Position numbers and translations under genes: made by a program. The notes below the pieces were generated by a model, which had not been told where the DNA came from, made no database searches, and was given only the letters and a program-made list of their open reading frames with translations. Shown one piece after another: positions 9,001 through 48,600 of a DNA stretch of 64,000 nt; position 1 is the first letter of the stretch, and every line of letters begins with the position of its first letter. Source of the stretch: Escallonia rubra (taxonomy: Eukaryota; Streptophyta; Magnoliopsida; Escalloniales; Escalloniaceae); contig JAVXUO010001957.1 of the NCBI GenBank assembly GCA_033065855.1, positions 1 to 64,000 on the forward strand, in the 5' to 3' direction.

Positions 9001-11951
9001 GCTAGTCAAAGCCCATTTTCATAAAAAGGCAAAAATTCAAGGTGCATGTGTTCTAAAACTAAAATCAGCAAAATTTAGGTAACATATATAATTTATTTGA
9101 CATGTGCAAGAAAGTCACTATAAACTCCAACAGATGGTAGATAATATGGACCAGAGTTTATTAAAAAGCATGAGCATAATGAGAGACTAAAAAAAAGCTG
9201 TGACAAAAAGATCCAGGGAAAGGAGACAAGAAGGGGTCTAGTTGTAAAAGGATGAGAGTGGAACGAGAGTGAATGGAGATATACAACCTCAAAAACCAGA
9301 AGATGTATCCAATGCTTAATGCAAGTCAGCGAGAAAGAAAAACCCAAGAAACTCTGGAAGAGCTTGATCCAGGTCCACTAAAAAATTGATAAGTGCATTT
9401 GTAGGTATAGAGCGGTCCATGTTTAAGTTTATGAGTGTATAGCACATTGACATAAGGACATCTCACGTAACATCAACAAAGGAAAGAATGACATACTGAT
9501 ATATGAAAGTTGATGCTGATACACATAACAATGTTTTCTACCTATTGATTAGAAAACTTTGACGCTACTATTAATATTAAACTATAACTTGAAAAAGAAT
9601 GACAATATGGTTCAGTCAAGAAAAACAACCACCATTCACAACAAAAGAAATTCTTTCTGGCATTACAGTTTCAATATGATAATTATCCATCATTTTAAAT
9701 AATGCAAGTTAGTTGAAGAATAAATATTAGTAATCGAGTTGATCCCAGTGGGCAATTAGACGTGCTTTTGAAAGACAGAAGATACAAAGTCGATGCGAGT
9801 TGACAAATGACACACATGATGCTGTAGCTCATGTTGACTGCAAAGTGCAAACTCATAACAACTATTTCATATAAAACAACAAAAAGTTATGCCCTACCTC
9901 AGAGAAAAACTTGTTTGACAACAAAATGGGAAATGTAATATATTCCCTCATAGTTATCTGGACTAAACGATTACGAACAGCATCAGAGAAAATTGAGCTG
10001 CCAGATTGAAGACCTATAACATGAAGAGTAGAATACCTGACAAAGGAAAAAATAAGAAGAGCAAGTGATTTACATGTTTACTTAATAGTAAATAATTCAG
10101 ATCGAAGAACCAAACAGCAACCTGTATAAGATGTTCCTCTACCTCTGCTGAAGTGATTTTACTTTTTCAAAAACATTAGCAGAGTCTTGGCTAGATAATG
10201 AGAAGTCTTCACTAAAAGCACCAGAAAGAACCAAAAAGACTCCATCTCTCCTGTAAACTTTCTTGCTCCCCACAGCTTTATTCAACCAACAATGGCAAGG
10301 GCCTATATGATCCATCTAATATGTTAAACTTAGAAAAGGTTTCGTACTGGACGGCATTAGACGCTTATCTATCTTAATCCTAATCAAGAAACAAGAAACA
10401 CATGCAATAAGGGGAACTCAAATATCACAAAATCAATTTCAAAATTTGGGACAAGAGTTACAGACATGGACTTCTCTGGCAACCCTTGACGACCAAATTC
10501 TGGATAACATCCTTGCAAAACAACTTGTCTTTGGATGACAAGAGTCGGTGAAATCAGGGATGTGGATCGCAATCGATGGGTAGAAAAAACCAAAAAGATA
10601 TTGACCGAACGTTTGACATTGTTGTTCGACATGACATATAGGTCTGCAACAGTATGCAATGCTGGATAATTGGAAAAAGTTGCATGCTAGAACTATGTGC
10701 CTGTTTCGTATTGGAGAAAAAACCAACACTAAGGCATACCAGTGAGTTTGATAAGACAACCGTAATCACGAGGCTGAGGAGACCACCATTCGGCCATTCT
10801 TCCTCGCCAACCTCCTCGAGGCAGCCGTTTGCCTGTGAACTAGCCTTCATTGCTTGTTCCAACTTGCCCAACCACAAGGACGAGGCAGGGAGGTAACAAA
10901 CAGTTACTGGTTAAAAGGCGCGGCCTACCTTAGACTGCACATGGATTAATCCCGACATCCAAGCAGTGTAATGCATTTTTCCAATTAATTAAATCCTTCA
11001 CAGTCCGGAAGAAGTGAAGAGGTTGGCAATTACGTGTCTCCGAGCATAACACTGTGTGGCTTAGCTGTTGTTCAAAAGCTCAAATCATTCTTGTATTTGC
11101 TTTAGTTGTTGTGCCTCACGAGCCGGCTAATTTTTGTAGATCCCTTTTGTAGTACTTAAGCCAGGATGCTCAATTATCTTTGTTAGATGTAGGCTTGGAA
11201 GATTAGACAGTGAATTGCCTGGAGGCATCGAGTCAAAGGAGAGGTAAATGAGCTAGTGAATCCCCCACCTGAATACTACCTTCAGGTGACTACTAAAAAT
11301 TGCCTACTAGTAGATTCTATCTAATAATCGCCTTGCTTGGCATATTCAATTAATCACCTACCAAATGTGTCCATCCTTTATATCAACACCACTGTCCCAT
11401 AAATATTACCTCATGCCGGCTAACATAACTTTGAAAAATGATCAACCACAACGTGACTCTAAAAAGCACACAATTTCGAAACTGAAAAGGAAAAAAAAAT
11501 GGAGATTTAAAGATAGGAAGATATTTTTTTGAGTTCTGCAAATCCTTTGCTTAAATTATAATATTTCAGGAGAAAAGAATTTTGCGCGCGTACCTTCAAG
11601 CTCGTCAAGAGCAGACTCAATAAAAGCCAAGACATCAGCTTTAGGAAGCGGCTGCGATAAACTTGATTCAACTGTAGTTGAAAACCTGGAAGAGACTGTC
11701 GCTTGACAAGCTCTCGTTCTGTTGGTGTAAGCACATTCGTCAGGCAAAGAATTCAAGTGCAGAGCAAATAAGTTAATGCCGCACCTCGACGATTGACCAC
11801 TACCTGCTAAGAAAAATTGGGTTTAAAAACCGAATATATGAAAATTAGGTCTCAGCCAGAAGGAAAAATTGGTTCAGCTTTGAGTTTAATGTAGTTCACC
11901 TGAGAAAATTCGAGGCAAAATCCGGTGAACTCGCCGGAATCTGTAGGCCAT
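1..11951 (-). CDS. EMB1974: NHL-repeat protein, EMB1974-like (3' end off the left edge)
   Basis: Coding exons, read right to left: 11900-11951, 11594-11806, 10143-10302, 9898-10036, 8682-8775, 7029-7169, 5870-5970, 5642-5755, 3813-4039, 1442-1500, 1175-1360, 960-1083, 800-858 and, tentatively, 199-240. All junctions are GT-AG and phases agree throughout, giving about 556 residues (570 with the last exon). The start MAYRFRRVHRILPRIFS is Arg-rich and organelle-targeting-like; an upstream in-frame ATG at 12098 is less likely. Residues about 90-170 (RRDGVFLVLSGAF, VIGLQSG) look thioredoxin-like, as in NHLRC2-type proteins (inference). NHL motifs follow: SDTNHHRIIVFDGNGKILDC near residues 280-300 and CLYIVDSE/NHAIRRADMES near 330-349. 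FPWHLMKSLNGDFFILN and the SFGTLWIMDLSSG stretch match what I recall of Arabidopsis At3g07060, an embryo-essential gene of about 770 residues, so roughly 200 C-terminal residues lie outside. The molecular role is not established. Confidence 0.85.
2493..3000 (-). mobile_element. LINE 3' remnant in an intron of the EMB1974-like gene
   Basis: An 86-residue minus-strand reading frame (2493-2753) contains ITIYVIWYERNTRTF followed by RSVKECLLLIKDVIQMRI. This is the pattern found after the zinc-binding (zf-RVT) domain at the C-terminus of plant L1-type reverse transcriptases. Adjacent sequence up to about 3000 continues it in other frames (LWTEVLLKLNIPLIGIL). No poly(A) tail or target duplication was found, so it is an old, short fragment lying between exons 9 and 10 of the host gene. 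Confidence 0.5.
4974..5287 (+). mobile_element. possible LINE-derived 3' fragment
   Basis: Two overlapping plus-strand frames share a residue pattern (LVERNKRNFKSVHRSVR, then LLYILRTWVRPLFG) like the WRERNRRTF...RS tail common in plant LINE C-termini. The match is weak and frame-shifted. It lies in the intron between exons 8 and 9 of the EMB1974-like gene, on the opposite strand. Confidence 0.3.
6293..6315. repeat. (GA)n microsatellite
   Basis: A run of about eleven GA units inside an intron of the EMB1974-like gene, directly after a short G-rich stretch. Confidence 0.9.
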
Positions 11952-11988
11952 CTTATGGTCGGAAATGCGAGTCGTAGATTTTCTCACG
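11404..11988. repeat. source copy of a local segmental duplication
   Basis: This stretch carries exons 1 and 2 of the EMB1974-like gene plus part of intron 2. It recurs at 19943-21216 in the same orientation, nearly base for base outside inserted sequence. Both copies share CATGCCGGCTAACATAACTT at one end and the Met-start exon at the other. Homology stops sharply at about 11988/21216, just upstream of the coding start, so the promoter was not obviously duplicated. Confidence 0.9.
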
Positions 11989-12149
11989 GGTTGCAACTTG
12001 AATGGTGACGTCGGCGGGAGTCCGGCTAGGGCTCTAAACTTGTCAAAGTGGAGCGAAACAGATTGTGCGGCATTACCCCAACGTGAATCTAATCGCATTC
12101 ATCTTGTTCTCTCTCAAGAAATCTAATCGCATTCGATCATTTACCGACG

Positions 12150-17299: not shown

Positions 17300-17970
17300 A
17301 AGTTATTGAGATTGACGTTTGGATGGATAAAAAAAGGGAAGGAGAGAGACCCACTGCCTCACGGCAGTGGGTGTGAGATGGAAGTAGATGTGTGAAAAAC
17401 AGTGATGCATTTGTGTATATGTTGAGTGAATGAAGTGTGGGTGTTGGAAAAAAAAAGGGAGTGGGAGAGAAACCCCACTGTCGTCGGGCAGTGGGTGTAA
17501 GGTGCAAGGTGTGTATGTGTGTGTTTGTTGTGTGCTTGGTGTATGAGTGTGTTTGAAATGTTGGTGTGTATATGTGTGTTTACATATGGGTGAGGTGTGT
17601 GTATATATGTCTGTGTGTATATAAGTGTGTATAAAGGTGGGTATCATATGGGTGAGTTGGTGTGTGGTCTGTGTGACACGTGCATGAATGAGTGTGTATT
17701 TTGCATGTACATAGGTGCTGTGTGGGTGTAAAAATGAAGGGAAGGCTGAAACTTCAGCCGTGGGCATGTGTGTGTTTGGTGTGGCCGTGGGTGATGGCTG
17801 TCGTAGTGTGCAAATGTGTGTGGGTTGAGGGAGAAAAAGAGGGCAGCTGGGTGCATTGTGTGCTTGTGTGTGTGTGCGCGTTTAAATATGTATAAAGAGA
17901 GTGGAAAGGGTGTGCAAAGTAGTGTAATGTGTGTACGTGTGTATGTGTGTGTGTGGGGTTGAAAGTGAGT
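17300..17970. repeat. TG-rich low-complexity region with small hairpins
   Basis: One strand is dominated by TGTG and GGTGTG words. Two short hairpins, CCCACTGCCTCACGGCAGTG (17350) and a related CCACTG...CAGTGGG (17478), sit in otherwise similar surroundings. His/Thr-rich frames on the other strand are artefacts of the repeat. It is probably part of the enclosing LTR-like block. Confidence 0.6.
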
Positions 17971-19942: not shown

Positions 19943-21216
19943 CATTACCGCATGCCGGCTAACATAACTTTGAAAAATGATCAACCGCATCGTGACTCTA
20001 AAAAGCACACAATTTCGCAACTGAAAAGGAAAAAAAATGGAGATTTAGGGTTCGTTTGACAATTTTTTTTTTTGTTTTCAGTTTTTAAAGAGCAGCTTAA
20101 TTTTTTTTTTTTTAAAAACAAGTGGGTGTTTGATAATCCCTTTTTTTTTGAGTTTTTTTTTTGGGTGTTTGGTAACCCTTTTTATTTTGACTTTTTTTTT
20201 TGGTGGTTTGCGGTGGCAGTGGTGGTGGTGGTGGCCGGCGGCCGGAGCGGCGGTGGTCGCCGGTGGCCGGAGGTGGCTGCTGGTCGCCGGCGGTGGCAGC
20301 CGGCAGTCTCCGGCCGGCGGAGGTGGCTGCCGGTAGTCTCCGGCCGCCGGAGGTGGCTGCCGGCAGTCTCCGGCGGTGGTCGCCTGAGGTGGCTGCCGGC
20401 GGTGGGAGGGTGGTGGTCTAAGAAAAAAAAACCAAAAGTGAAAAAAAAAAATCAGTTTCTGGAGTTTTTTTTTTTACTCTTCAGTTTAAAAACTGGTTTT
20501 TAAAATTGAAAAAAAAATGGTTACCAAACGCTCCTTTTTTTTCAGTTTTTCTTTTTTTTTTAATTTTTAAAAATTAAAAAAAAAAGAGCAAAATTTTTTT
20601 GTCAAACTGGCCCTTATAGGAAGATATTTTTTTGGGAGACCTTCACAATCTACTTGAGTTCTGCAAATCCGTTCTACCTTCAATCCTTTGCTTAAATTAT
20701 AATATTTCAGGAGAAAAGAATTTTGCGCGCGGTATCTTCAAGCTTGTCAAGAGCAGACTCAATAGAAGCCAAGACATCAGCTTTAAGAAGCGGCTGCGAT
20801 AAACTTGATTCAACTGTAGTTGAAAACCTGGAAGAGACTGTCGCTTGTAAGTTAGGACTGCTAACTCAAATCGGTCAAAAACTACAAGCTCTTCCAACCA
20901 GGTGAAAACTTAATTTCTCCAATATACCTCTGAACTTGACAAGCTCTGGTTCTGTTGGTGTAAGCACATTCGTCAGGCAAAGAATTCAAGTGCAGAGCAA
21001 ATAAGTTAATGCCTCACCTCGACGATTGACCACTACCTGCTGAGAAAATTTGGGTTTAAAAACCGAATATATGAAAATTAGGTCTCAGCCAGAAGGAAAA
21101 ATTGGTTCAGCTTTGAGTTTAATGTAGTTCACCTGAGAAAATTCGAGGCAAAATCCGGTGAACTCGCCAGAATCTGTACGCCATCTTATGGTCGGAAATG
21201 CGAGTCGTAGATTTTC
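19943..21216 (-). pseudogene. broken duplicate of EMB1974-like exons 1-2
   Basis: This is the second copy of the 11404-11988 segment. Exon 1 (21133-21184) still reads MAYRFWRVHRILPRIFS with one substitution. Exon 2 (about 20733-21039) carries an extra 91 bp at 20848-20938, flanked by CTTG on both sides, which brings a stop into frame. The exon 2 donor has changed from GAAG/GTACGC to GAAG/ATACCG. No further exons follow, so it cannot encode the protein. A MITE occupies 20048-20613. Divergence from the source copy is low, suggesting a fairly recent event. Confidence 0.9.
20048..20613. mobile_element. Tourist-like MITE with internal 30-bp repeats
   Basis: It is flanked by TTA on each side (20045-20047, 20614-20616), and the paralogous site near 11510 lacks it. 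Ends are GGGTTCGTTTGACAA and TTGTCAAACTGGCCC. TTA/TAA duplication points to PIF/Harbinger. The arms are long T and A runs. The core (20215-20415) is GC-rich with about 30-bp units built on GGTGGCTGCCGGCAGTCTCC. Confidence 0.75.
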
Positions 21217-21830
21217 TCGCCGGAATTTGTATTGCAAGGCAAGCTCAAAATTTTCAGCATTGAAAACTAATTTTGGTATTGCATGCTTTCAGTTAAACAT
21301 CGACTAAGTTCAATGAAAGATGGCATATAGTTTTTTTTTGGGTGCAAAGATGGCATATAGTGATCATTGATTGTCGTCGTATGAAAGATTGTAAGTGTTT
21401 TAGTGGCTAAAAGTCTTTGATAACTTTTCATTGGGCTGTAGATGAAAAAGGGACCAAGGTGTGGCCCAATAGTTAAGTTGGTCCAAACTCTACAAATATA
21501 TTGTATTACCGCCACCAATTTCCCATTGGGCTGCATCTAAGTATTGCTTTGGGGTTTGAATCATTTTCTCTTAGCGAAATGCAAATTTTAGCCGTTAAAG
21601 ATTTTCATTTGCGACGAGTTTTCCTTTTATCTACAAAATGCGGGGTTGAAATCTTGTTTTTATCTAATTCTTGAGTGTTATTTAAAAGTCTTAATCTGAT
21701 CAAAAGAAATTTATCTCTGATTTTGAAGAGGCCTACGGGGATGATTACATCGAATTCAAAGTAACTTATTTTGTGTATTGACAAAATCAGAATATCTCCA
21801 ATTGTACTATTAACTATTATTTATACTATA

Positions 21831-24790: not shown

Positions 24791-24851
24791 AAAGCTGTTG
24801 TTTAAAATTTTCTCTTTTTTAAGTCAATTTAGGATGTTTAAATAAGGACAT

Positions 24852-26351
24852 CCTTCCTCAAGCTCTATCTACCTTTCGTACAATCTCATCTTTGGACTTC
24901 AAAGTACCAGACTTTATCTCGGAAGGCGTTTGGGATGAAGGGAAACTAAGTAGTATCTTTCCTTCTCTTATAGTTGATTCTATCCAATCGATTTATATCT
25001 ATACAACAGGTTACCCTGATTAGTGTATCTGGGAGCCAACAGGAACCGAAATCTTTACGGTGCATTCAGCCTACCTTTTGTGGTATAAGGAAATATTGGT
25101 TAATCAAAATAATCTTCAACACTCCTTCAATCCGGGGGCTTCAATTCCTTCACAGACATGGAAGGCCCTTTGGCGACTTCAGATTCCAGAAAAAATGCAA
25201 CTATTCTTCTGGCAACTTCTTATTGACATATTACCCACTAGAGACGGCCTAACTCGATGCGGAATCATCAACGATCCCCTCTGTGAGCTTTGTAGCCAGG
25301 AAATTGAGACAGCTCAGCATCTCTTTTTCTGATGTCCACTCATCCGACTAGTTTGGTTTGGCAGTCCATTGGGCATTCTCACTTCCTCTCCTTTACCTTC
25401 TTTTAAATAGTGGCTCATAGCATGGCTTACTCCAACCAAAGCTTCAACCTACATATCTTCAAATCAAATTATTTTTCTAACGACCTTATGGTATATTTGG
25501 GTATACCGTAACGAGTGTATATTCAAGCATGTCTCTTTTTCTCCTTCCACTGTTTTAAATCAAGCCCATCTCTTGACCCAAACAATAAACCGTATATTTT
25601 CTAACAAAACCACGGAAAGACACAAAACACACCTTAATAGCTACTCCCAGATATACAAACCGAAGCTTCACAACCTTTTACCTGTTCATCTTCACTCTGT
25701 GAACCAATCTTGTCTATGTATCAATCCCGATATCTTTCATCTCTATATTGCATCCTACTGGGATAAAGAGAGCTTAAAGGCGGGACTAGGGATCTTTATT
25801 TTCAATGTTGAATGTATACATGTACAAAGCTGGAGCTCTAGTTTTTCGGCTGCCACACAACAGTTAGCCTTGGCTAAATCACTCTTACATACTTGCACCT
25901 GGGCTCGACTTCACAACTTAAAGCATATCATAATTCATATTGACTCTTTATACCTGCTCTCGCAGATGGCGGATGCTGATACGTTGGATTGCATGGTAAA
26001 GCCTATAATATATGATATATGCCATCTATGCTCCTCTTTTGATAAGTGCAGTTTAACCACCGGTGATCCAGACATATTTCAAGAAGTCAAACTGTTTGCC
26101 ATGACGGTAAGAATGGCAAACTCTTTCACAAACCAGGAGTGACTTCTTATCTTATGAAGCGAATGAGAGGAATCATTTTGTGGTCTTACTAGTCTGTGCT
26201 TTACTAGTTTTTAATAGGAGTATTTTGTCGAGCTTCACTATTTAATATCCCCTTTTGTAATTTACTGTTTTATGGTACTCTAGGCAAGACTGTTAATTGA
26301 ACTTTTTATTTGATATTAATGCAAGCCTGAAAATTTCCAAAAAAAAAAAAA
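24852..26351 (+). mobile_element. 5'-truncated L1-type LINE with poly(A) and 8-bp TSD
   Basis: The frame opens mid-protein (DFKVPDFISEGVWDEGKL), then a zf-RVT domain, about 25140-25350 (LWRLQIPEKMQLFFWQLL, PLCELC, ETAQHLFF), and an RNase-H-like domain, about 25730-26140 (AGLGIFIFN, LALAKSLLHTC, IIIHIDSLYLLSQM). It ends in a run of about 15 A. AAGGACAT flanks it at 24844-24851 and 26352-26359 (its first two A's merge with the poly(A)). The reverse transcriptase is missing and at least one stop (25330) and one frameshift break the rest. Insertion was into the Harbinger remnant. Confidence 0.8.
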
Positions 26352-26856: not shown

Positions 26857-28133
26857 GTTAGCCTCTCAGTCGCTCGACATCTATCATTCGGTTTATCACC
26901 GTATACAGTCTCGAAGTCGTACCCTAGCCTGTTAGAAATTGCTTGTCAAATTAGTTCGTCGAATGTGAAGCTGTACCTTTTTGTGCGATTTATATGCTGA
27001 ATATTGGTGAATCCTGAGATTAACCGCGTAATTGGTGAATGCTGTTGTTACTGATTATTGGTTAAAATAGTTGCTTCATTGTAATTGTTATTTTCACCTT
27101 TTTTTTAATAAACTTTTCAGGAATCTGACTGAATTGTTGTTACTGACAGATGTATACACTTGTCCAATTTTCTCTTTCTTTTCTGTCCGGAGAGGCTGTC
27201 TCGACCCCAATGTGCTATTCCACCCCCTCGTATGTCGCTATAAAGGATAATTGTCACTACAGTGAATTTATTAGCGGTAACAAGGGGGGTGGAAATAGCC
27301 TTATCTTTTTCCACTTTGGAAGGATAAATATCATGGCCAGTTCTATTCAGTACTAGCTTCAATTTATTTTGCAAGCCATAATTTAGGGCTAGTATTCACT
27401 GTTTTGTTCCTTTTGTTGCCCGTTTGACTTCTATTTAGCTCAAAAAAGAAGTCTGCATTAGCAAAAAAACCTTTACTGTGATGACGTTTCTGTTAGCAAA
27501 AAACCTTGTATGAGAATTTTACGTTATCCTGTTGTTAGTGGTAGAGTGGGGCTCGGGCATTTTTAGTATTTGGGGTTTTTTAACAAGAGCACTTGTGGCG
27601 GGGCAAATGTTACTAGTGGGAACATGTGTTCAAAGTTTTTCATACACGTGAAAGTTGGGGGTTGCTTATAGATGATTTACTGGTGGTGTAATCTAACTAA
27701 GTCCTAGTTAGATTACATTTATAGGATTCCTAGTTATCTAAGTAAGTCCTCCTGGGACAGTGGTTGTGGAGAAATCCTAGGCTGTGGATGGCTCCAGAGG
27801 TTGGGTTACGGCGTTTTGTGTAGGTGAGCAGAGGAGCATTGCAGATAGGGGGCCGCTGGTCCTTTTTTTGGGATTGGACAAGTTTGGAATGCCCCAAAGG
27901 TTGGATTAGGGTCCTTATGGGGTCGGTTTGTCGTACAGCATTGCAGGATTGTGGCCTAGTTTTGTGAGGCTATCTTTATTGTTGGGCAAGAGGAGAAGAG
28001 TGATGTTATGGATCACGAGTGCCAGTGTTGCAGAGTCAGAGTCAGTAAGAAGCGATTGAAGGATTGGGAGTGGATCTTAATATGCTTATCCAGAAGTGAT
28101 CCGACCCAGCAAACCACAAGCGCACAAACCCAT

Positions 28134-28136
<3 letters not shown>

Positions 28137-28164
<28 letters not shown>

Positions 28165-28191
28165 TTATATATATATATATATACATACATA
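28137..28191. repeat. (CT)n(AT)n compound microsatellite
   Basis: About 13 CT units pass directly into TA units and ACATACATATACATAC. Confidence 0.95.
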
Positions 28192-29120
28192 TACATACCG
28201 CAGTCATAAATAATGATACCGTTGTCCCCTGATTAGAAATTCAAACATCAAAAAAGTTCTTAATTGCTTCGTAAACTTATCATTCGCCAAACTACATGGA
28301 ACCCTTAAATTAGAACTTAGATTTGAAACTTGTGCAAAATTAGAGTTAAAACCTGTTCTCAAGGGTGTAGATGGAAGATTCTAATTTTATTGAGGCAAAT
28401 GTTTAGTTTTGTAGTATATACAGGTCAAAACATGAGTTTCAAGGATATATCTGAAAGTTGTCGAAAGGTTTGTGGGTTTTTAAATACAAGTTTGTAATGG
28501 TTTGGGGCCTAGGTAGCACGGACACCGTGTCCGACACCGACACCGACACCGACCGAGACACCGCAATTTTAAAAAAACCAGATTTTGGACACCGCTGAAT
28601 TTATATATATATATATATATAGGGAGCTGATCCCTTGACAGCGCTGGCAAAATAGGACATCTTGCCAGCGCGATCTGACCGTCCATCCTGAAAGATGGAC
28701 TGCCCAGATCGCGCCTTTTTCGTATACTGTCAGTCGTCCGCGACACTATATCGCGGACGGACTTTTTTACCTTTTTGCCCCTCCGACCCGTCCGCTACAC
28801 TATATCGCGGACGGTCCAAATATTTTTTTTACTTTTTTTTAAGTTCGTCCGCTACATAATGTAGCGGACGATTTTTTGACAAAAATATCCTCATGTTCCA
28901 TCCGCTACATTATGTAGCAGAGGAGTAGGCAGGCATTATTTTTTTGTTCTGTCCTTTCTCTAATTGTTCTTCTGACATCTCTCTCTCGTTTCTCTCAATG
29001 TCCTTTCTCTTTCTCTGTCCTTCCTCAACCACAGCAACAGGATGAAGAAGAAGTGGAAGGTTCAATTTCTCGTTTAAAACCTTGACAGCCCTCTTGCTCT
29101 TCTTCCCCCCATGGCAGCAG

Positions 29121-29315
29121 TTGTTTATTCAGTCTGCTTTAATCGATATGTATTGCAAGTGTGGGGATATGGGTTCGGGGAGGAAGTTTTTCTATGGCTC
29201 GATGGAAAGGAATGCTATTTCTTGGACTGCTCTGATGTCGGGTTATGTCTCAAATGGGAGGCTTGAACAGACTTTAAGATTGATAGTCTGGATGCAGCAA
29301 GAAGGGTTCAAACCA
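29121..29315 (+). pseudogene. captured PPR protein fragment
   Basis: ALIDMYCKCGDMGSGRKFFY, then ERNAISWTALMSGYVSNGRL and WMQQEGFKP, are P/L/S-type pentatricopeptide repeats. They resemble a chloroplast-type PPR protein (At1g71460-like, from memory). About 65 residues, roughly two repeats, were captured. The frame continues through the element into the lectin piece. Confidence 0.85.
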
Positions 29316-29317
29316 AG

Positions 29318-29449
29318 ATCGACTCGAAGAAGAGGCTGGCGAAGGGGAGGAAGAGCGACCGGTATGCTCCACGCGCCGGCGATAGCTTGCCGGAATCGGT
29401 GGACTGGAGGGCCAAAGGTGACGTTGCTCCGGTCAAAGATCAAGGAAGC
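29318..29449 (+). pseudogene. captured papain-like cysteine protease fragment
   Basis: Read in a different frame from its neighbours: [19 protein letters not shown], then [13 protein letters not shown]. This is the propeptide/mature junction of RD21-like C1A proteases. It stops just before the CGSCW active-site cysteine, so no protease activity is possible. Confidence 0.85.
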
Positions 29450-29471
29450 CGTCGAAAGTCCGGCCACCATC

Positions 29472-29798
29472 AGCAACAATGCCCTGCGGGTCACGCCGGA
29501 AAGTATTAACAGCGAGGTCTTCAGCCTCAAAAACCGGTCCGGCAGGGTCATGCTCCGTACACCTTTCAAGCTTTGGGATGGCCAAAACGTGGGTTCTTTC
29601 AACGCTTCCTTCCTCATGAACATTTTCCGGCCGGGCAACGCCACTGCCGGAGAAGGCATCGCTTTCGTTATCGCGCCGGACCTCAGCCTGCCAGGCAACA
29701 GCCACGGGCAGTACCTTGGCCTGACAAACTCGACCACTGACGGCAAATCTAGTAACCAGATCGTGGCCGTAGAGTTCGACACTAGCATGTCGTCGTGA
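29472..29798 (+). pseudogene. captured legume-lectin domain fragment
   Basis: SEVFSLKNRSGRVMLRTPFK, SFNASFLMNI, GEGIAFVIAPDLSLP and QIVAVEFDTSMSS are the N-terminal half of the L-type lectin domain, as found in lectin receptor kinases. It ends at the VEFDT strand where metal-binding residues begin. It shares the frame of the PPR fragment, giving a 238-codon chimeric frame 29082-29798. Confidence 0.85.
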
Positions 29799-30352
29799 TG
29801 GGTTCGTGGGTAAGCAGCCATGACTGCCGTGAGAAGGTGAAGGCGAGGGGATTGGTGCGCCTGTGTGTGAAAAAAGAAGGAGAGGGGAGTAGCATCAGGT
29901 TGCTGCCTGGCATGAGAGTGCATGTCTGCGTGTGTGAGGGAGAAATGAACAAAGGGAGAAGAAGAGCCACTGCCGTGAGGCAGTAGCACTGTTACTTGAA
30001 TGTCTTTTCTTGGAGCCTGAACCCAAAGTCGCCAATGTCGGCGCATAATTTTAACGAGAGAAAGGACAGAACAAAAAAATAATGCCTGCCTACTCCTCCG
30101 CTACATAATGTAGCGGATGGAACATGAGGAACTTAAAAAAAAAGTAAAAAAAATATTTGGACCGTCCGCGATATAGTGTAGCGGACGGGTCGGAGGGGCA
30201 AAAAGGTAAAAAAGTCCGTCCGCGATATAGTGTCGCGGACGACTGACAGTATACGAAAAAGGCGCGATCTGGGCAGTCCATCTTTCAGGATGGACGGTCA
30301 GATCGCGCTGGCAAGATGTCCTATTTTGCCAGCGCTGTCAAGGGATCAGCTC

Positions 30353-30386
<34 letters not shown>

Positions 30387-31077
30387 GACATATACACACA
30401 CATACACACATCTCAATTGGAGCAACTAAATTTCGTTCAAAATGGATGAGAAAGAAAGCAAGTAACATGAAATAGTCTCAACAGTAACAAGAAAAAAGGT
30501 CGGCAACAAGAAAGCAGTTGAATGTCTCAACAGTACCAAGATTAGAGTCTCAACAATAATAAGAGAGAAGGAAAAAAGACATGAGACCAAAGGTATGAAG
30601 GAGAGGTTTTATATAGTTAGATGGTCTGTAAATGAGGTCGAAAATGTTGACCTATCTTTCTCTAGACTGGCAAGCTTGGATGCTTTAGGCAACAAAAAGA
30701 AAGAAAAGACAAAGAGATGAGAGATAAAGAAGAAGGTACCTTTTGTTGGGTCGATCTGATTAAGGTTTGGCCTAAAAGTTCATTTCTAAAAAACTCCAGA
30801 TTTATCCCTCAAATAAATTTGAAATATTGTATTTTGGCCCCATACGAGTGCACATTTCTTCACAAGGTGTCTGACACTTCTTAAAGAGGTGTCCGACACA
30901 TCTTCGAGAGGTGTCCGACACGGTGTCCGGTAATTAAAAAATAAATAAATAAATTCGGACACCGTTGAGAGGTGTCGGACACGTGTCCGGAGGTGTCGGT
31001 GAGGTGTCGAGGTGTCGGTAAGTGTCGGACACCATACCTCGTCCTATAAGAGGTGTCGGTGCTTCCTAGTTTGGGGC

Positions 31078-32270
31078 TATATATAATTGTTTAAAATTTA
31101 GGGGGTCAAATATAATTGTGCAAACCTTAGGTTTTGCTTTGGACCATAAACCCAATTCATTTTTCAATCCATTTACCACTGGATCAAAATGGATTGGATG
31201 TATTCGGATTTGCCTTTTATGGATTGGATATTATCAAGAGGCTTGCTTACCACGTCAGTGCTGGATTTGGCAGTGGCTTGGTCTGGGATGAGGTTCAGAC
31301 AGGATTTCAGTGATTGGGAGCTTGAGTCTATACACTCCTTTACATTGTACAGGAAATTAAGCTGCCAGGGCCGGTGATGACTGTCTTTCATGAATTCTGA
31401 ATAAAGGGCGGGGGGTTGTTCGTTCCTTTTGTTGCCCTTCATGTGAAGTTTTAAAGAGTTTTTTCCTGTAGATGAGTACTTGGATGTGCTCTGCACCTTC
31501 TGTGGTAGCTTTCTTTTTGTGCCAGCAGTTTCGAGGAAAGGGCAGATCTTGACTACTAGGTAACTGGTGATCATTTGCTGCTCTATTATGAGGCGGCCTG
31601 TAGCTTTTGAGTCTTCTTCTTGCATTTTTTGGGGTCTAGTCAGTCATGCCAAGGACAATAAGTGATTTGATGATAGGCAGAGGTGGAGGCTGGCGTCATT
31701 GTGGGTCATATGTCGTCCATTTGGAGAGAGAGGAATAGGCGCACTTCATGGAGTGAATTGCATCTCATTTCCTATATGATACTGAGCCTACAATTTTTCT
31801 GGGCTTAAAAGGATTTTCCGAAGTCTGCCATGGCATTTGTTGATTGGTCAATACATATATTTTTTGTGCCTTGGCCGGGTGATCTTGTTTTGCTTGCCTT
31901 GAGTCCCTTTGGAGTTCTTGGTCTTGAAATTTTGATTTTGTTTTGCTTGGAAACTTTGCCTCGCTCTGGGGCCTTTCCAATACAATTGACTTGTCAACAC
32001 TAGAAAGACAAGAGACGCACCCCACCCTTTTTTAATTGATGGGGTGGACTAGCAACTGCTAGTGCTGACTGCTGAGAGAGTCCCTCCCTTCTTGCTATTA
32101 TACGTTTGTTTATTTCCTTTCCTTAATGATTTAGTTACTTAATGTAGAATAATAATACAAATTCAGTAATTACCTTAATGAATGTCATTGCATGCACCCG
32201 TTTAACTATCTCGATGATATATTAATGGGCTTTTCTTATCTCCTGTCTTGATTCTGCAGTTAGTGGACAG
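31078..32270. other. putative 5' intron of the CWF19L2 gene, nothing else seen
   Basis: T-rich sequence on the plus strand, with no recognisable coding frame or repeat. It ends in an acceptor-like TTGATTCTGCAG at about 32270. Confidence 0.5.
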
Positions 32271-32315: not shown

Positions 32316-35300
32316 ATGGCCTTACCGTTCAAGGTAATCAATTTTACTTCTTCAGCTTATTTTCTGTGTACGTATCCATGTACGTGTGTAGATGCATGTA
32401 CATATATAGATATGCATATCCATGTATATGCTACCAGTGATTTACGTGCTTACACATGATAGTATTTTGTTATTATGTTGTTTTTGGAAATAATAATAAT
32501 AACGGATATGATTGGAGTAGAGAGGACTTACAAGCTACCATGAGCAAAAACATGGACAAAGTTCTCTAACATGGTACAATTACCAACTATGATTTGCCTC
32601 GGACCAAATATGAATACTAAAAGCAGAAAACAGTATAATCAATAGCTTTGAATATTTATTTGTCATAAGTTCAATAGCTTGAAAGGTTTTCCTGGTGTTT
32701 GTATCTTTTGCTAAATTAGTAAAATATATTGATGCTTCAATTATTCGGTGTTGTATATGAATTTTTCATTAGAATGATGAGAAATATGAATCCTTGAATT
32801 GATTGATTACTAACTTGAGTAGAAAAGAATTGGTAACTTCCCTTTTGGAGCTAAATTGCGTTGTTCCTTCAATGTCATTCTCTGTTAACTACTGAACGTT
32901 GCACTATTAATTGTGCAGGACGTATCAGTTCGTCATGCTGATATGAAAGTGCCTAAGCTTCATGATTCTGTATCCTGGGGGAAGCGGAAAAGACAAGCTA
33001 TGTCTACTAAGGATGCAGACTTGATATCTTCTGCAAGGTCCAGCTTAAACAAGTTTGCCAATGATGGAAGTTTCACGTGCCAAGTTATGCATCAGAAAAG
33101 AGACGATTCTGGTGGTTTTTCATATGCCAGACATGACAGAAACATAGAGTCAGAACAGGTTTCATCAGCCCCATCCATTTCATCAGAATCCAAGAAATCT
33201 AGCCAAGATTATGCAGCTGTTAATACAGCATTGAGTGCAAACCAGTTGACTGCAAAGGTTATGCAGCTTCGTATGAAAGGAAAGCATGATGAAGCAGAAA
33301 AACTTATGGTGAGAAACTACTTTATGTCACATTTTTGGAACTCGTCCCTGATATCACTTGAGCACCTGTTTGTAGGAAGTTAGAGATATCATTACCAACT
33401 TCTATAACAATGCTAACTTTTGTCATGGCTGTTAATTTTTGGCCATTTACGCCTTTCTCCCTTTACATGTTTTTTTATCCTCGTTCCATTATAAAATCAT
33501 TTATCTTACATCAGATAGTCAAGATTGTAGAGAGAGAGCTTGAAAGCTCAGCTTGCCCGTTATCACTCGCAATGAGTGCTTAAACATTTTAGTTGTATAC
33601 TCAAGCTGCTAGTTTCCCTTTTCACTGGTCTTCAGCCTTTTTCACAAACTATGTGAATATATAGCTTGCCCTTTGTATTAGTACATACTTTTCGACTGGT
33701 CTCTATGGTAATTAATTTTATCCAATCTCCATGGCAATCAACTGTATGTATAGTGTTCTACTTTCCTAACTTTCCTGTTGTATACTGTTGTTATTAGTGA
33801 TTTGATCCTGCAGTATTATTATATATATCTGTATGATTCCGTGCAACAATCTGAAGTTTAAGAACATTGATTGCAAAAAATGAGACTGTTTTTTCTGAAG
33901 GTTCTCCCATTCCTCGTTTGAAGTTACATCCCTAAAGTGAGCTGATAACGTAGGATGGAAAAGTTTGGTTTTAAGAGTGAATTGGGTTGCTGGTCACATC
34001 TTTAAGTTGGCCTTTTAAGATTTGTAATGAATTCCTCAGTGATTTGTTCTTTTACGCCAGGGTCGCCCTAATTGCCTTGAAGAACTGTGTTTCTCACTTC
34101 CTACGAGAGATTTTCTTGATTTATTCTTTTGTACCTCAAATTATGGGAAGAACACAAATTTCTAGGGCCAAAGTATAATGGACTTCAGTGTTGCTTACTT
34201 TACTAATACGCAGCTTTCTTCTTTGTTTCTTATTAGAAAGTGGCAGATAAAATGAAGGCAAAGCACGATTCTGTTGATGAAACACAAAGACCCCAAGATG
34301 ATGGAAGAAGCAGGTATTTTTGCATCTATCTTTAAATTATGCTGTTCCTATGAATTGCGGATAGAATATTAAAGCTGTTATTGCATCTGACTCTCCCAAA
34401 TAAGATAAGACTGTTCTTGTGTTACTCTATTAAAGGAAATGGCCTGCCCATATTTCTTTTCTTGTCATTCCAATAACATTTTTTTTCCCTTTTTGGATCA
34501 TATAACATTCACATTCTTTCTGCGGTTTTACAACTAAGTCGTGTCAATGTTGTGATATTTCTCACTAGATATGTAAAGCATTACCTGACAAACCGGCAAA
34601 AGAAGAAAGAGGAGGATGCTGACTCTTACCTAGCTCAACAGATAGTGCAAAACGAACTGTACACCATAGCTGGTGGGGCAGATGGTGAATATGATTACGA
34701 TGGGGCTCCAAGGAGAAAGATTCGGAAGAAAGAGGGCAATGATCACAAGTCAACTCAGAAGGCTAGTTTTGCAAACCGAATCTTGACTCAGCAAGAGCGC
34801 TGCCAATATTGCTTTGAGAATCCCAAGCGGCCACGACACCTAATTGTTGCAATAGCCAACTTTACCTATCTGATGTTACCACAGTGGCAACCCATTGTGC
34901 CGGGTCATTGCTGCATATTACCTATGCAGGTGAGTTACACTAGTGCATCTACTTGTCTTGTTCTGTATAGCTTGCATTTATCAAGACAAGGACTGTGTCT
35001 TGCCAGTACTCATTATCTGGGTTGATTTTTGGGTGTCTTTTGCTCCTGTTGGTTAGAGGGATGGAAAAAGGTACCTGGAAGGCTTTGTTTAGGATTGTAC
35101 AGGAAGAAAAGAGGATAGGACCCGGAAGGCTTTGTTTATAAGAAATTTGAATTTTTAAATGCTTTGGAGATGAAAGTAGAATCATTTTTGGATGCTTAGA
35201 TTATCAGCTTGATGCAAGCATTCACCATGATTCCACTACCACTACAACTGCCACAAGAAATATATTCTTATTCTTATCAGCTTAGATTGTTTCCTATTTA

Positions 35301-41400: not shown

Positions 41401-41718
41401 CTAGTTGGATATAGGGTTTGGCCCGCTTGGAACTTCATGAGCCCCTGCCCCAAACTCTCTACCAACTGTAGAAGAAGAAGATGCTCTTTTATGGTGTGAG
41501 TTTTGGGTACTTTTGGGGTGCAAGCTGTTCGTTTTCGTCGAAGAATCCGAGCCGAGAAGTTCATGCCTTAGGGTTGGATTTATGTTTGTGGAAGATGGTT
41601 TTAGGGTGAGGAAGATTGTCATGAGTAGGAGGGCAAGGAAGAGAAGAAAAATGGAGTAGTGTGACCTTGTGGATGTTGTGTTGCTTTGAGAGATTGAATT
41701 GGTTTTGTGTGTTGCCAT
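41401..41718 (-). CDS. CLE44: TDIF peptide precursor (CLE41/CLE44 type)
   Basis: A single-exon 105-residue precursor. MATHKTN at 41718 is chosen because Arabidopsis CLE41/CLE44 begin MAT; the same frame is open further upstream to 41958 without homology. Residues 22-39 (SIFLLFLALLLMTIFLTL) are a hydrophobic signal/anchor segment, followed by a variable Ser/Thr/Asn-rich stretch. The C-terminus is REFGAGAHEVPSGPNPISN, so residues 94-105 are exactly the tracheary element differentiation inhibitory factor dodecapeptide. Known role of the family: the peptide, cleaved from the precursor in phloem and hydroxylated on prolines, signals through the PXY/TDR receptor kinase to maintain cambial stem cells and block xylem differentiation. 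Everything needed appears intact. Whether it is closer to CLE41 or CLE44 cannot be settled from sequence alone. Confidence 0.95.
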   Translation of the reverse strand: MATHKTNSISQSNTTSTRSHYSIFLLFLALLLMTIFLTLKPSSTNINPTLRHELLGSDSSTKTNSLHPKSTQNSHHKRASSSSTVGREFGAGAHEVPSGPNPISN

Positions 41719-43745
41719 GCACTCTGGAATTATAATAGGAAAAAACCTGCACCCCCCAATAGAACACAAGAGATCAATATCCATGAACCAATATACCACC
41801 CCAAGTCTAAGAATTAGGGGGGAAGAAAGGGAGGAGAGCAAAAGGAAGGGAGAAGAAGGTTCAGCAAAAGTGGATGGAATGGAAAGGAGCGGTTTTGAAA
41901 TAATACTAATTGCATTTATACACATTAGGTACTGTTGTTGAGAACCAACACAAACCAACTAATAATCAACATGGAAGCCCAAGGTCTAAAAGAAAACTAA
42001 TTAAATTTTAAAAGTCCTCCTGCCTTGGCAGAGTTAATTATATACATATGAGGAGTGGTGTAATTAAGTTACCACTTTTTAGGACATTATGTACCAAAAT
42101 AACTAAATGACTCCATTATATCACTATTCATGTGAGGCGAGATTGAGTTTTCGGTTCAGTTTTTAAAGCGACAATGAGATACGAGATGTAATATTTAAAA
42201 TTGTTCTTCATGGGTGGACTAGTTAACATATATACTTTGATCTCGTCAAACCACCAAGCACGTATATATGCTCTCAGCCCAACTAAGCCAAGTCGGGCGA
42301 TAGAATCCAATTCAAAATCATCAAAATGAAGTAGAGACCCACAAGACAAGTATTAGTATTTTTTATTTTTTCTCTGCGCGAATGTATCCTCAACACGCTC
42401 TCTCACATGTGACCGACCGAATTTCGTACGAGCGAACCAAATACGTGTATGCATTAAACTGAATAGCAGTGAAACTTATCGAACGCGTGTCTTATAATCT
42501 TATGATTCCAGCAGAGACATGAGAGATAGAGTTGTATGGAATAAAGGAGATTTATCTTTGAAAGGAAAAAAGGCAAATGGCAGCAGGAGGAAGAAGGAAA
42601 GGGAGGTGGTGGAATGGTGGCTTTTTCTTGCTTGGCCGGTTACCCAAGAAATCTTTACTTTGACTTGGGAGCCAAACCTAAACATTGGAAAATTGTTTCC
42701 TTGGTATACCTTGCCTTTGCTTTGCTTTTCTTTTATCAAATGTAATGTCCCTCTCACTCCCCCATCTTGAGCGCGTACCAGTTTGAAGCCGGCCCCTCCA
42801 CCAAGATTTAAAACCTCGCTCTAGTAGGGACAAGGGGGAATGTAGTTCCATTACATTGAACTTTGGCCTTTAATTTAAATAAGTCAGCTAGCGTGGCACA
42901 CGCGATGCGTGTTCAAAAATAAAGTTGATAATATCAATTTTGTTAAAAAAAATTAAGCATTCATTATGTATAAGTGTTTATTATCACATTTGGTAAAATG
43001 AATCTTAAATTGCAGAAAAATAAGTTAGCCATGCGTGTGGCAAAATGAGTTAGCAAAATATTATCATTATATGAAACTTAGATTTAATTTTAACTACACT
43101 TTTTTTAATGAATTTGAAATTATTAAAACCAAACATGTGCAAAGATAAAGTTAGCATTAATATGCTATTTTTGTAATATCAAGTTTGGGCTTTATAATTT
43201 ATTCTAACTATATATTTTTAATGAAGTTTAAATTATAAAAACCAAACATGTCTTTATAGGTAGTTATTTAGGATTTGTATTTTGTGTCATTTTCTAAAAA
43301 AAATCTTGAAATATCACTTGTCACAATTCTAGATAAGTAGTTAGTAATACCAAAGGGGTGTTACACTAAAACAGGTTTTTCTTTTATATATAGTATAGAT
43401 AGATAAATAGATATAGATTTAACTAGAAGGGAAAACAACAAGGTAAGAGTAAATAAAAGATAAATTCACTTGTGGTGTTTTATGAAGTGAAAGGGTAACC
43501 TAAAAGACTTTTTTAGAATCTCCAACCCATAGCCCTCGTTGATATCACTAGGGTAACACTAGTTCTCGGTTGATGGTTGACCATTAGACTATTTCCAAGT
43601 GAAAGTCAAACACAGAATGTATGGAAGTACATGACTCGTGCATCATACTTTCTCGAGACTATCCTAACTTGAAAGGAATCAAAGAGTTTGGATAAATTAG
43701 TCGATTATAGACGTATTGGAGATAAAACTTTACCTAATAGCCTAA
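41719..43745. other. intergenic, upstream region of the CLE gene
   Basis: 41719-42050 should contain the CLE promoter and leader; no confident TATA box was chosen. 42880-43420 is very AT-rich and holds AAACCAAACATGTG words twice (43127, 43239), suggesting an unidentified non-coding repeat. Confidence 0.45.
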
Positions 43746-43822
43746 GGGTGTGTTTGATAACGCAATTAAACACTTAAAATTTAAAATTTTTAATGATTTT
43801 CAATTAAATGCGTTTGATAACG
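43746..43822. mobile_element. solitary 77-bp MITE end
   Basis: GGGTGTGTTTGATAACGC and the next roughly 60 bp are the inverse of 44893-44970 (ends ...GGTTATCAAACACATCT). TAA precedes this end and TTA follows the other. The partner lies inside a different element. Confidence 0.65.
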
Positions 43823-43898
43823 CTAAACCTTGTATCACTTAAAAAATTAATTCATACCAAAAATAGACTAAACTTTTAAGTCAGGGTGGACTTACTTA

Positions 43899-45616
43899 GG
43901 GGCTGTTTGATAAAACTAAAAATTAAGTGCTGAAAACGTTAAGCGCTGAATTTATAAAACTGAAAACTTTAAGCAACTGAATTTTTACTGAAAAATAAGT
44001 TAACCTGTTTGGTAAATAAAAAACAAATGTCTGAAAATTGTTCAATTTACAAATTAATCCGTTTTAACAAAATTATGCATTTATTTATGTACTTAATAAC
44101 TTTTTTTCGGGCAAAATCGTGTTAATGGTGGCGGCAGCGGCCGCGAAAAAGTGTCAATGGTGGCGGCAGTGGTGGGTGAAGATGTGGTGTTGGTAATTGT
44201 GGTATTAGCAATATGTAGCGACATGGTAGTTATGATAGTGGTTGTAGTGTGGTGAATATTTAGATGATTTTGACAGACATGAATGTGGTGATTGTGGTAA
44301 TGATGTGATGGAGTGGCGTTTCCTCGTGGTGATGGTGGTAGTAGTGGCAAGGTCTTAGGAATCGTGATAGTGGTAGCAAAAGGGAATAATAGTTGTGGTG
44401 GTGATTATAGTGTGGTAAAAGCGGTGTCGCCAGTAAATTAATTGAAGCGGCATCATAATGGTAATTATTCTTAGAATTAAGTGATAAGCATTAAGAAAAT
44501 CCTAATTGCAGCTACATTTTAATCATCTCACTTAGAATTAAGTGATAAGCATTAAGAAAATCCTAATTGCATCAAAAAATCAAGCAACACCCATATAATA
44601 AGCACCATGAGAAAACAAAGAAATCATGTAGCTGCAATTGTGGCTGGAGTATACGTGAGAAGAGATTGTTGCTTCGGCTCAATCTGGAGGAAGAAGAAGA
44701 AGAAGAGACAGTGAAACAATCGGGAAGAAGATGAGTCAAATGAGGAGCTATTGAGGACAAATTAGTCACTTATGGGTTAAATATTTTAATGACCTACCAT
44801 TGAGCGTTTTCAGTGATAAGTCAGCTATGAATGACTTAAAATATTGGCCTTTAATTGACTTGCCACTTATTACTTTAAGTGATGGAAAAAGTTGGTTATC
44901 AAACGCATTTAATTTTAAATCATTGAAAATTTTCAGTTTTAAGTGCTGAATTGGGTTATCAAACACATCTTTAATGTTGATCACTTAATTCTAAGTGAGA
45001 TGGTTAAAAGTTCTTTAACATATTTTTACATAAAAATAATAATTATCACCATGATGCCGCCTCAATAAATTTGTTGCCAACACCGCCTCCACCACCACAA
45101 CCATTATTTCATTTTGCTACCACGACCTAGTCACCATCACCACCACCACCACCACCGACAACATCACAAGGACAACGCCTCCTCCACCATACCGTCGTTG
45201 TTGTCACCACGTCCATTTCCGTAAAAAAACATTTAAAGATTCATGTCGCCGCATATCGCTATCATCACAATTACCAACACTACGTCTTCACGGATCATTA
45301 CCGCCACCATTGACTCCTTTTTGCCGCCGTCGCTGCCGCCGTCACCACCACTACTACTCCATCATCACTGCCGCCACCACCACCACCACCAACACGATTT
45401 TAACCTCCTAAAAAAAGTTACAAAGTACATAAACAAATGTATAATTTTGGTAAAACGGATAAATTTGTAAATAAACAATTTTCAGACATTTGCTTTTGGT
45501 TTACCAAACATGTTAACTTATTTTTCAGTAAATATTCAGCCGCTTAAAATTTTCAGTTTTACAAATTCAGTACTTAACTTTTTCAGAACTTAAATTTCAG
45601 TTTTATCAAACAGCCC
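43899..45616. mobile_element. foldback MITE, 1.7 kb, TTA target duplication
   Basis: TTA flanks GGGGCTGTTTGATAAAACT on the left (43896) and TTTTATCAAACAGCCC on the right (45617). Inverted arms extend inward to about 44566 and 44978, including GGCATCATAATGGTAATTAT against ATAATTATCACCATGATGCC. The arms are rich in GGTGGTGG/CCACCACC, giving spurious His-rich frames. A 37-bp direct repeat (44471 and 44531) adjoins the centre. TTA duplication suggests PIF/Harbinger kinship. No transposase. Confidence 0.7.
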
Positions 45617-48600
45617 TTAAGTTAGTAATTCATCCTTCATTATGAATCGACATACACAACACAACTCATTGCTACGCTAACTTCTAAGGAATTCTTAAAA
45701 GCTTATGAACCGCAACAATCAAGAACGTGTTAACAAATATCTTCCTTGACATGTGTACCTTACATCACATTTTTTTCTTGGGTGGGGTGGGAGGGTAGGG
45801 AGGTTGGTTTAGAAGGTACTAGCTTGTAAGTCAATCGAGACTAAATCTTCTCCTTGTGCAATCTTCTATGAGCACCCCATCGGCTTAAAGCATTCTAAGA
45901 AACACATTCCCCAGGAGTGCACTATATGTCACTACTAGAGATCCCTATTGAGTTGAAATTGCTGCCTTCAAGTGCCATCATGAGGTTAGTCACAGGACCA
46001 CACCGTAGCCTAACCTTAACAATCACTTCACAGTGGCACATCGCTACAACACAACATTGTTGTTGCGCCAAGACACCAATCAATTAAGATTGCCAAACTC
46101 CCCCGAGAGCACGACCCATAACATCACATATACAAGGTCAAGGATCTTTATGCACAACCCGCGGGTAAGAAACAAAACAACAACAAAAAGAGGACAGGCA
46201 GGGTAACACCTTATGTGAATAGTCCGTCTCAAAACCATGGACTTTTATACCGCTTGTCAGGGAGCCGTAGAGTTGGACAAAGGAATCGATACATACCACG
46301 GGAGTCCGACATTTTTCCTTAACACCTAACCTTGTTTTGTTTAATTCTAATCTTACAAGTAGCAGTGGGTACACAAATTTGGAGGTGTGGCTCGTGGGAG
46401 TCAAGTGCTTTAGAATGAGAGTGAGTCTAAGACACAAGTTTATGCTTCTGAAAATTGAGTGTGCAAAAAAGAGCACACGGAAAGCAACGCATCGTATTCT
46501 CTCATTTGTGAAAGAAAGCTAAGTCCAAGCCGAATGCTTCGCTTGTCTCCATGATGGGAGGTGAATGGGGTCCCCATGACCTCGGTATATACATGTTCAC
46601 TGGAAAGGGTGGTACGTTCAGGTCAAATCTGGAATTTCACTCCCTGGTTCCTCCCTTTAATGAGTGGCTCATTATCAAGCTTTTCGTCTTTTACTTCGGC
46701 ATTTCCCAAAGATAACGTGTTGCGTGTAGGACATTGAGGATCTCCTTTTTGGGTATCCGGAGATTTTGAGTATTACCCTTTTCTCTCTCTCTCTCTCTCT
46801 CTCTTAGGTTAAGAGAGAAATGAAGTTGAGAAGATTTCAATAATGTCATTGGTATTTGCTTGTTAATGTATCCGTTGAGAGAGTTTTGTTTTCGTTCGAT
46901 GTCCGAAAAAAGAGTCATCAGTATGACCATTTTTAGCCTTTTCCCCCCTAAAGAAACAGTTGAGACTGTTGCTTTGATGTGCTCAACAAAGATGAAAAAC
47001 AAGGATGGAAAGAAAGCGAAAAATGAGAAATAAAACATCCCAACTAAAGTTACAAACTTTGGCCTAGACAAGAAACCAACCCCTCATGTGTTGGTTTGCA
47101 AGCTTCCACAACATCTAGTTTGCAAAAGTCAAAGGAGTGAGCCTTCAATAGTTCAATGTATAATTGAGTCGATGACTGGCTAACCACCAAGAATTCAGGA
47201 TGCTTTCAACTTTTAACAGATAAGACAACCCCTCATGGGTTCCTTTGTTAGGTAAGCAGCAGAGCAAACTATCTGTCCATCCGTTCACAAATTAGCAGCA
47301 AGCCCAAGAAAACATTCACTATTCTGACCAAAAATGTCAACAGATTGAGGTAAGCACTCAACCTAGATCTCAGTGACCTTACGTTGATACATTAATTAAT
47401 ACCATATCTAGGTCATTATTGGACTCATGGAGAACATAATACTGTAGGCATCTCTAAACCTTAGACGTCAATCCTAGTGAAATTTATTCCTAGTGAAACA
47501 GAAAGGTTCAAGGCACACAACACATTCATATTTAACTTGTAAACTTTGTGATACCTTCCTTTCGACTACTTCTGCCAAAAACAAGAAACCCTAAAACAGC
47601 CCATTTGAGGTGGCAAGTTGAGGTATGAGATGGGGATGTGACCTAAAGAAGGCATAACCCAATGAGCAAGCTAGAAGACACAAATAGTCAACAAAGTCTT
47701 TTGTTTTTCCTATTGACAAAACCTTCCAAATGGACACCCCTTTATTCTTTGATGAACAAGTAAGGAGGAAAGAAACCGAATTCCCACCTCTAGATGGGAG
47801 AAGAAGTTGCAAAGTAAGCAGGTTTAGGTATAAGATTCACTTCCAAAAGCATGTAATAATAGCCATTCCTCATCTTCTTCATTCTTCGTATTCTTTTCCC
47901 ACTTATCAAATTGGACATGATTATGGGGAAAGGTAGCCTTTATTTTTAGCTACATGTTACCCGGACCTCTTTATCAGGGTCCACCCGAGGCAAAATCAAG
48001 TTTTCCACAATACCAACTTACGAAAAGTATCTGCTTAAAGTATTTTGTATGAACCCGTTGTGATATATAAACAGGTCAAAGAGCCATTGCCCCTTTCCAG
48101 GCGCAGTTTCAGTAAATTTTCAAAACATAGGTCCTACTTGCCATCCCAACACAATAATAGTCAATCCTATACATGATAGATGCCATTTATTAAAGAATTT
48201 ATGGACATCTTAACAGCCTTCAATATACAATACTCAATCGGTGGCAGTGGAGGAATGAGGTAATGCAACTTTTGGTAGGGTTGAAGTCATCGGTTTGTTG
48301 ACTCGGAACGGGAGAGAACGCGAGAGTGCGAAGGCCGTTAAAGTTGACACGTATTTAAAAGTGAGTGCGAGAAAGGCAACGCAAGAGCGAGGGCCAAGAG
48401 TGAGGGCGTTGTCAAGCTTCATAAGGATCTTTTGACTTGGGGTAAGGTCGATCACGTGGTGGCATGCATACTATATGTATAATGTTTAGTGCCTTCGGAA
48501 AAGAAAGGCTTTGGCAATGGTAAAACAATCATGGATCAATTAAACCAAATCCGCAAGCTAGCAAAAGGACATGAAAGGTGAGTGGCACTTGCATGTGTTT

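Follow-up and report, generated by a model that had tools for sequence, protein, structure and literature searches.

What is the 1,733-bp structure at positions 28622-30354 of this window (the whole 64,000-nt stretch of Escallonia rubra DNA that was analyzed), and do the pieces of different genes joined inside it amount to a new gene? The structure is bounded by terminal inverted repeats (TIRs) and is, in all probability, a non-autonomous Mutator-like element (MULE) of the Pack-MULE kind, with cargo drawn from multiple sources. The open reading frame that runs through two of its cargo pieces is most likely incidental. The features to which the text refers are the following.

28509-31069, no strand: outer element, host of the Pack-type insertion, with ends CTAGGTAGCACGGACACC and CTAGGAAGCACCGACACC
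28602-28621, no strand: left TA tract, 20 nt
28622-28961, plus strand: left TIR, 340 bp, starting GGGAGCTGATCCC, with many palindromic modules
28734-28923, plus strand: four near-palindromic 26-bp modules of the left arm, at 28734, 28788, 28845 and 28898
28962-29120, plus strand: CT-rich leader-like stretch, with ATGs at 28998, 29042 and 29111 that do not start the chimeric frame
29121-29315, plus strand: PPR gene fragment, about two repeats, in the frame of the chimeric ORF; borders approximate
29148-29798, plus strand: ATG-initiated part of the PPR/lectin frame, 216 aa; judged incidental
29243-30046, minus strand: antisense open frame, 267 aa, used as a control
29312-29449, plus strand: papain-like cysteine protease fragment, in another frame; borders approximate
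29454-29798, plus strand: N-terminal half of an L-type (legume-type) lectin domain, in the frame of the chimeric ORF, with the stop at 29796-29798; borders approximate
29799-30056, no strand: fourth, GT-rich segment, with the hairpin word CCACTGCCGTGAGGCAGT at 29967-29984
30057-30354, minus strand: right TIR, 298 bp, without 43 nt (one hairpin module) present in the left arm
30094, 30162 and 30216: three near-palindromic 26-bp modules of the right arm
30355-30383, no strand: right AT tract, 29 nt

The first-pass annotation of this DNA described near-perfect inverted ends of about 300 bp. Alignment of the whole arms, 340 and 298 bp long, bears this out, with one mismatch in 297 aligned positions and gaps of 1 nt (in a T run) and 43 nt. 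An outer inverted repeat (28622-28840 with 30136-30354) extends for 219 nt at 100% complementarity, and an inner one (28888-28961 with 30057-30130) for 74 nt at 99%. No second copy of the element was seen in the 64-kb window, where the terminal 22-base word is found at the two ends only; none of 100 shuffles contained those 22 bases, even with up to three mismatches allowed. Exact searches found no match to the terminal word in viral and bacterial/archaeal contigs and none to a TIR module word in viral contigs, collections in which a plant element is not expected. Besides the 26-bp modules, the arms also hold an outer hairpin, and the left arm, folded as single-stranded DNA, reaches -72.2, where 100 shuffles average -32.4 (z about -10). 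The arm lengths fall within the Pack-MULE range of about 100-500 bp; excerpts of PMC3310237 give MULE TIRs of 100-500 bp and target site duplications (TSDs) of 9-11 bp.

Between the arms, three unrelated host-gene fragments in sense orientation had been proposed, and homologies to a PPR protein, a cysteine protease and a lectin are indeed found, all on the plus strand. Agreement in orientation among three pieces has a probability of 1/4 and is unremarkable. The PPR piece matches PF13041 (PPR_2, E=2.6e-9) and the lectin piece matches PF00139 (Lectin_legB, E=3e-28, profile positions 19-127 of 250), both above the Pfam cut-offs; a second scan over ten cargo frames left these values nearly unchanged, and phmmer against solved structures agrees with Pfam among the best 60 of 120 matches. 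The protease piece lies between them and is read, as had been claimed, in a different frame, 2 nt after that of the chimeric ORF. Its 46 residues cover the end of the propeptide and the start of the mature enzyme and break off after DQGS, just before the point where the catalytic cysteine motif would be expected. Its closest match by phmmer, among the best 60 of 110 matches to solved structures, is Triticain alpha (E=1.3e-5); in the same set the second match, TLP-IPT, looks like chance, and the others are mostly named papain-family enzymes. The Pfam score for Peptidase_C1 (E=0.026, 15.0 bits) is below the cut-off of 20.7, which is unsurprising because the match spans just 22 of 220 profile positions. 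These homologies support derivation of the carried pieces from host genes that are not transposon genes.

A fourth segment had been said to resemble the region at 17300-17510, so that more than three sources might be joined. One part of that claim stands: an exact 18-mer, nearly palindromic, is common to 29967-29984 and 17370-17353 (E=0.008). The overall similarity to 17.3-17.5 kb is weak, its score being equalled by 3 of 300 and 3 of 500 shuffles, and by 14 of 500 once 29967-30040 is removed; other tiles, from 15.3 to 17.7 kb, score 22-24 against 27. A search for the hairpin form found three instances in the window (at 17353, 17477 and 29969), each after a GGGA/GAGA-rich stretch. The two at 17353-17492 are ACTGCC-N4-GGCAGT hairpins, the second with one change, set 124 bp apart in GT-rich DNA. 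The shared near-palindromic 18-mer and the GT-rich composition thus hint only weakly that the fourth segment may be a piece of the 17.3-kb region.

Cargo of this kind could act as RNA, with transcripts or small RNAs that target the genes from which the PPR, protease or lectin pieces derive. As DNA, the left TIR folds into strong hairpins, and excerpts of a review describe the fragments that maize Helitrons, Pack-MULEs and Sireviruses have captured as siRNA reservoirs (PMC13317346). No Rfam family matches 28000-31500 at the gathering threshold, which counts against this reading. We consider it unlikely, and it is compatible with a Pack-MULE rather than exclusive of one.

The class of the element depends in part on its flanks. 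When direct duplications of every length from 1 to 20 were compared across the two flanks, all ten odd lengths matched and all ten even lengths failed. A duplication of 9 or 11 bp (or of 3 bp) therefore fits, and one of 2, 8 or 10 bp does not, although the exact length is unreadable within a TA tract and 9 or 11 bp is no more than allowed. Tc1/mariner elements make duplications of 2 bp, and hAT elements of 8 bp. This argument from phase is weaker than it appears, since guayule SaTar MULEs that have landed in TA tracts frequently show no proper TSD (PMC5907723, in excerpt). Perfect TA tracts of at least 16 nt number four in the window and cover 98 of its 64,000 nt; the element's own flanks account for two of the four. 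Because such tracts are so rare, the landing in one would be unlikely for a random target and hints, from a single insertion, at a target preference, though MULEs may favor AT-rich sites.

The Pack-type reading given in the first-pass annotation is upheld. It is supported by the long TIRs, a flank phase that allows 9 or 11 bp and three unrelated homologies, together with a cargo GC content of 0.52 (0.39 for the window) and the lack of any transposase family among the Pfam matches (E of 1 or less) to the ten cargo frames of at least 62 aa. A competing reading is an element outside the MULEs, of foldback, Harbinger or CACTA type, with a 3-bp duplication and captured pieces. Other superfamilies have terminal motifs of their own, such as the CACTA ends of CACTA-type elements; the ends here start with GGGAG. 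A 3-bp duplication (ATA) does also fit the flanks, and transduplication is reported, in excerpts of PMC2528002, from every superfamily of class II elements in grapevine. The MULEs described in the excerpted literature nevertheless match the arms of about 300 bp, the foldback modules and the TA tract, and we regard a non-MULE origin as improbable.

The insertion lies inside another, older element. An 8-bp duplication, TTTGGGGC, at 28501-28508 and 31070-31077 encloses an outer element with imperfect inverted ends of 18 bp, CTAGG[T/A]AGCAC[G/C]GACACC, and an abundance of GACACC/GGTGTC words. Since duplications of 8 bp are typical of hAT elements, the outer element is possibly hAT-like. Its ends and its duplication lie beyond the TA tracts; therefore the Pack-type element was inserted later, into a TA tract inside the older element.

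The Pack-type element is apparently young, judging from its arms. One substitution in 297 positions is a divergence of 0.0034 (Poisson interval 0.00009-0.0188), which at an assumed rate of 7e-9 per site per year would place the insertion at about 0.24 million years ago (0.006-1.34), with TIR identity taken at face value. If the TIRs are homogenized, the element would be older than this estimate.

Several other features of the window were observed. The Pack-type element ends about 2.5 kb upstream of an exon region, 32889-33383, that belongs to CWF19-like gene exons on the plus strand at 32889-35025; PF04677 is matched within 34477-35022 (E=7.9e-16), and 32889-33383 was assigned by eye. An ORF on the minus strand at 41401-41958, without a Pfam match at E up to 0.01, ends in HEVPSGPNPISN, which we take to be the TDIF (CLE41/44) peptide. 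Inverted repeats at 43743-45626 (167 nt at 86%, 107 nt at 78% and 79 nt at 87%), with ends GGGCTGTTTGATAAAA, look like another old foldback-type element. Direct-repeat blocks at 11405-11990 and 19944-21223, 96-97% identical at spacings of 8.5-9.2 kb, are perhaps LTRs that belong to a single retrotransposon; the second block contains GC-rich tandem repeats at about 20.2-20.4 kb. Probable LINE remains occupy 24823-26142 on the plus strand, where 25411-26142 has an RNase H-like match (RVT_3, E=3e-4; 21.0 bits, the cut-off being 21.6) and the upstream part was assigned by eye. A direct repeat at 52687-54166, with a step of 913 bp (300 nt at 94%), is probably a tandem duplication, because a 70-bp repeat pair recurs at the same step.

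Does the joined cargo encode a protein? The PPR and lectin pieces had been assigned to one frame of 238 codons, 29082-29798. That frame is open and common to both pieces, but it starts with TTG, and its first ATG, at 29148, falls inside the PPR piece. From stop to stop it has 250 codons, where dinucleotide shuffles of the cargo average 113 and none of 500 reaches 250. This is the one result that points towards constraint, although the shuffles ignore the coding origin of the pieces. It is discounted because the pieces come from coding DNA and because the antisense frame, which is longer and has no Pfam match, passes the same test (0 of 500 shuffles reach 270 codons). By descent, neither the PPR nor the lectin piece has a stop in its own frame, and the protease piece lacks stops in two of its three frames. 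A fairer control varies the phase at the junctions: given the three pieces, two of the nine phasings leave PPR and lectin in a common open frame, which makes the frame a weak argument for a gene. The new chimeric gene hinted at in the first-pass annotation is accordingly not sustained, and its inference from ORF length was rejected.

That two PPR repeats and half a lectin together make up a functional chimeric protein is very improbable. In its favor, besides the length of the frame, the PPR_2 and lectin parts score above their cut-offs, and ATG 29148 has a purine at -3 where ATG 29111 has none, so that leaky scanning could reach 29148. Against it, the upstream ATGs at 28998, 29042 and 29111 open short frames (15, 11 and 51 codons), the middle part is protease sequence read out of frame, and, with profile positions 128-250 of the lectin missing and only about two PPR repeats present, a function of the parental type seems unlikely. 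A static inverted duplication or an assembly artefact is scarcely credible: transposition is not needed to produce a perfect 219-bp inverted repeat, but the two arms stop at an identical base where they meet the TA repeats, both flanks carry on an older element that has an 8-bp duplication of its own, and the gene families behind the cargo are unrelated.

With the element read as a Pack-MULE, its relatives can be compared. Pack-MULEs of rice, maize, Arabidopsis and tomato, as described in the excerpted sources, likewise have long TIRs and host-gene fragments without transposase, and in rice a GC-rich cargo. The joining of several parents is already well described for Pack-MULEs, including those of rice; among putative genes derived from MULEs, about 5-10% trace back to more than one parent in most Oryza species, and such genes are GC-rich (PMC4858842, in excerpt). 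Unlike the usual Pack-MULE, the present element combines at least three recognizable sources and a fourth piece with TIRs built of palindromic modules and a TA microsatellite as insertion site.

MULEs, or MULE-derived MITEs, that target TA are reported from Medicago, rice, guayule and pineapple (excerpts of PMC4486113 and PMC5907723 among the sources). MuTAnT of Medicago truncatula, a foldback MULE with 9-nt TSDs, shares with the present element the foldback TIR modules, the terminal G run and insertion into (TA)n, its 9-nt TSD being read at non-TA sites (excerpts of PMC4486113). Its published TIR search mask is GGGGTTTGCTAGAACA, in contrast to GGGAGCTGATCCCTTG here, and to the eye the two agree in nothing but the terminal G run; the element was therefore not assigned to the MuTAnT family. 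In addition, 90% of MuTAnT copies are 200-300 bp long, and the excerpted text of PMC4486113 does not mention captured genes. The SaTar and Micron elements of guayule and rice are similar in being non-autonomous MULEs found in microsatellites, predominantly TA, and the rice families measure 0.38-1.9 kb; rSaTar1, 3 and 5 of rice differ in being classed as non-Pack-MULEs (all from excerpts of PMC5907723). According to the same excerpts, guayule SaTars outside microsatellites have TSDs of 10 bp, a length that does not fit the flanks here, although SaTars in TA tracts often misfit as well, and SaTars join end to end where the present element nests (PMC5907723).

In the open-licence literature, as represented by the excerpted sources, TA-microsatellite targeting and gene capture by MULEs were found treated apart. 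What is mildly new at this locus is gene capture combined with a resemblance to the (TA)n-targeting MULEs MuTAnT and SaTar. We propose tentatively, as a reading about as open to doubt as to belief and leaning slightly towards doubt, that there is a MULE lineage which, besides homing to TA microsatellites, picks up fragments of host genes and joins them (a 'Pack-MuTAnT').

Such an element might have formed as follows. The host-gene pieces would have been copied into an ancestral element through template switching, either while a gap was repaired or where a fork had stalled. Trouble at a fork would be in keeping with TIRs so rich in hairpins and with arms that differ by 43 nt. Models of capture by gap filling and by fork stalling have been worked out in animals (PMC8277862, in excerpt). 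A MURA-type transposase supplied in trans may then have moved the element into the TA tract, a recent event if the TIR identity is read directly as age. Excerpts of PMC8277862 call protein-coding Pack-MULEs rare. Any effect on the host is likelier to come from TIR transcription and small RNAs matching the parental genes than from a working protein.

The element alone is no demonstration of a new gene. It is a clean and apparently young case of multi-source gene capture, with near-identical TIRs whose arms differ by one 43-nt stretch holding a hairpin module, and as such is useful for studying how MULEs acquire fragments. If a TA-homing lineage does also capture genes, its capture machinery could shuffle exons and the insertions would still fall near genes at sites where they do no harm.
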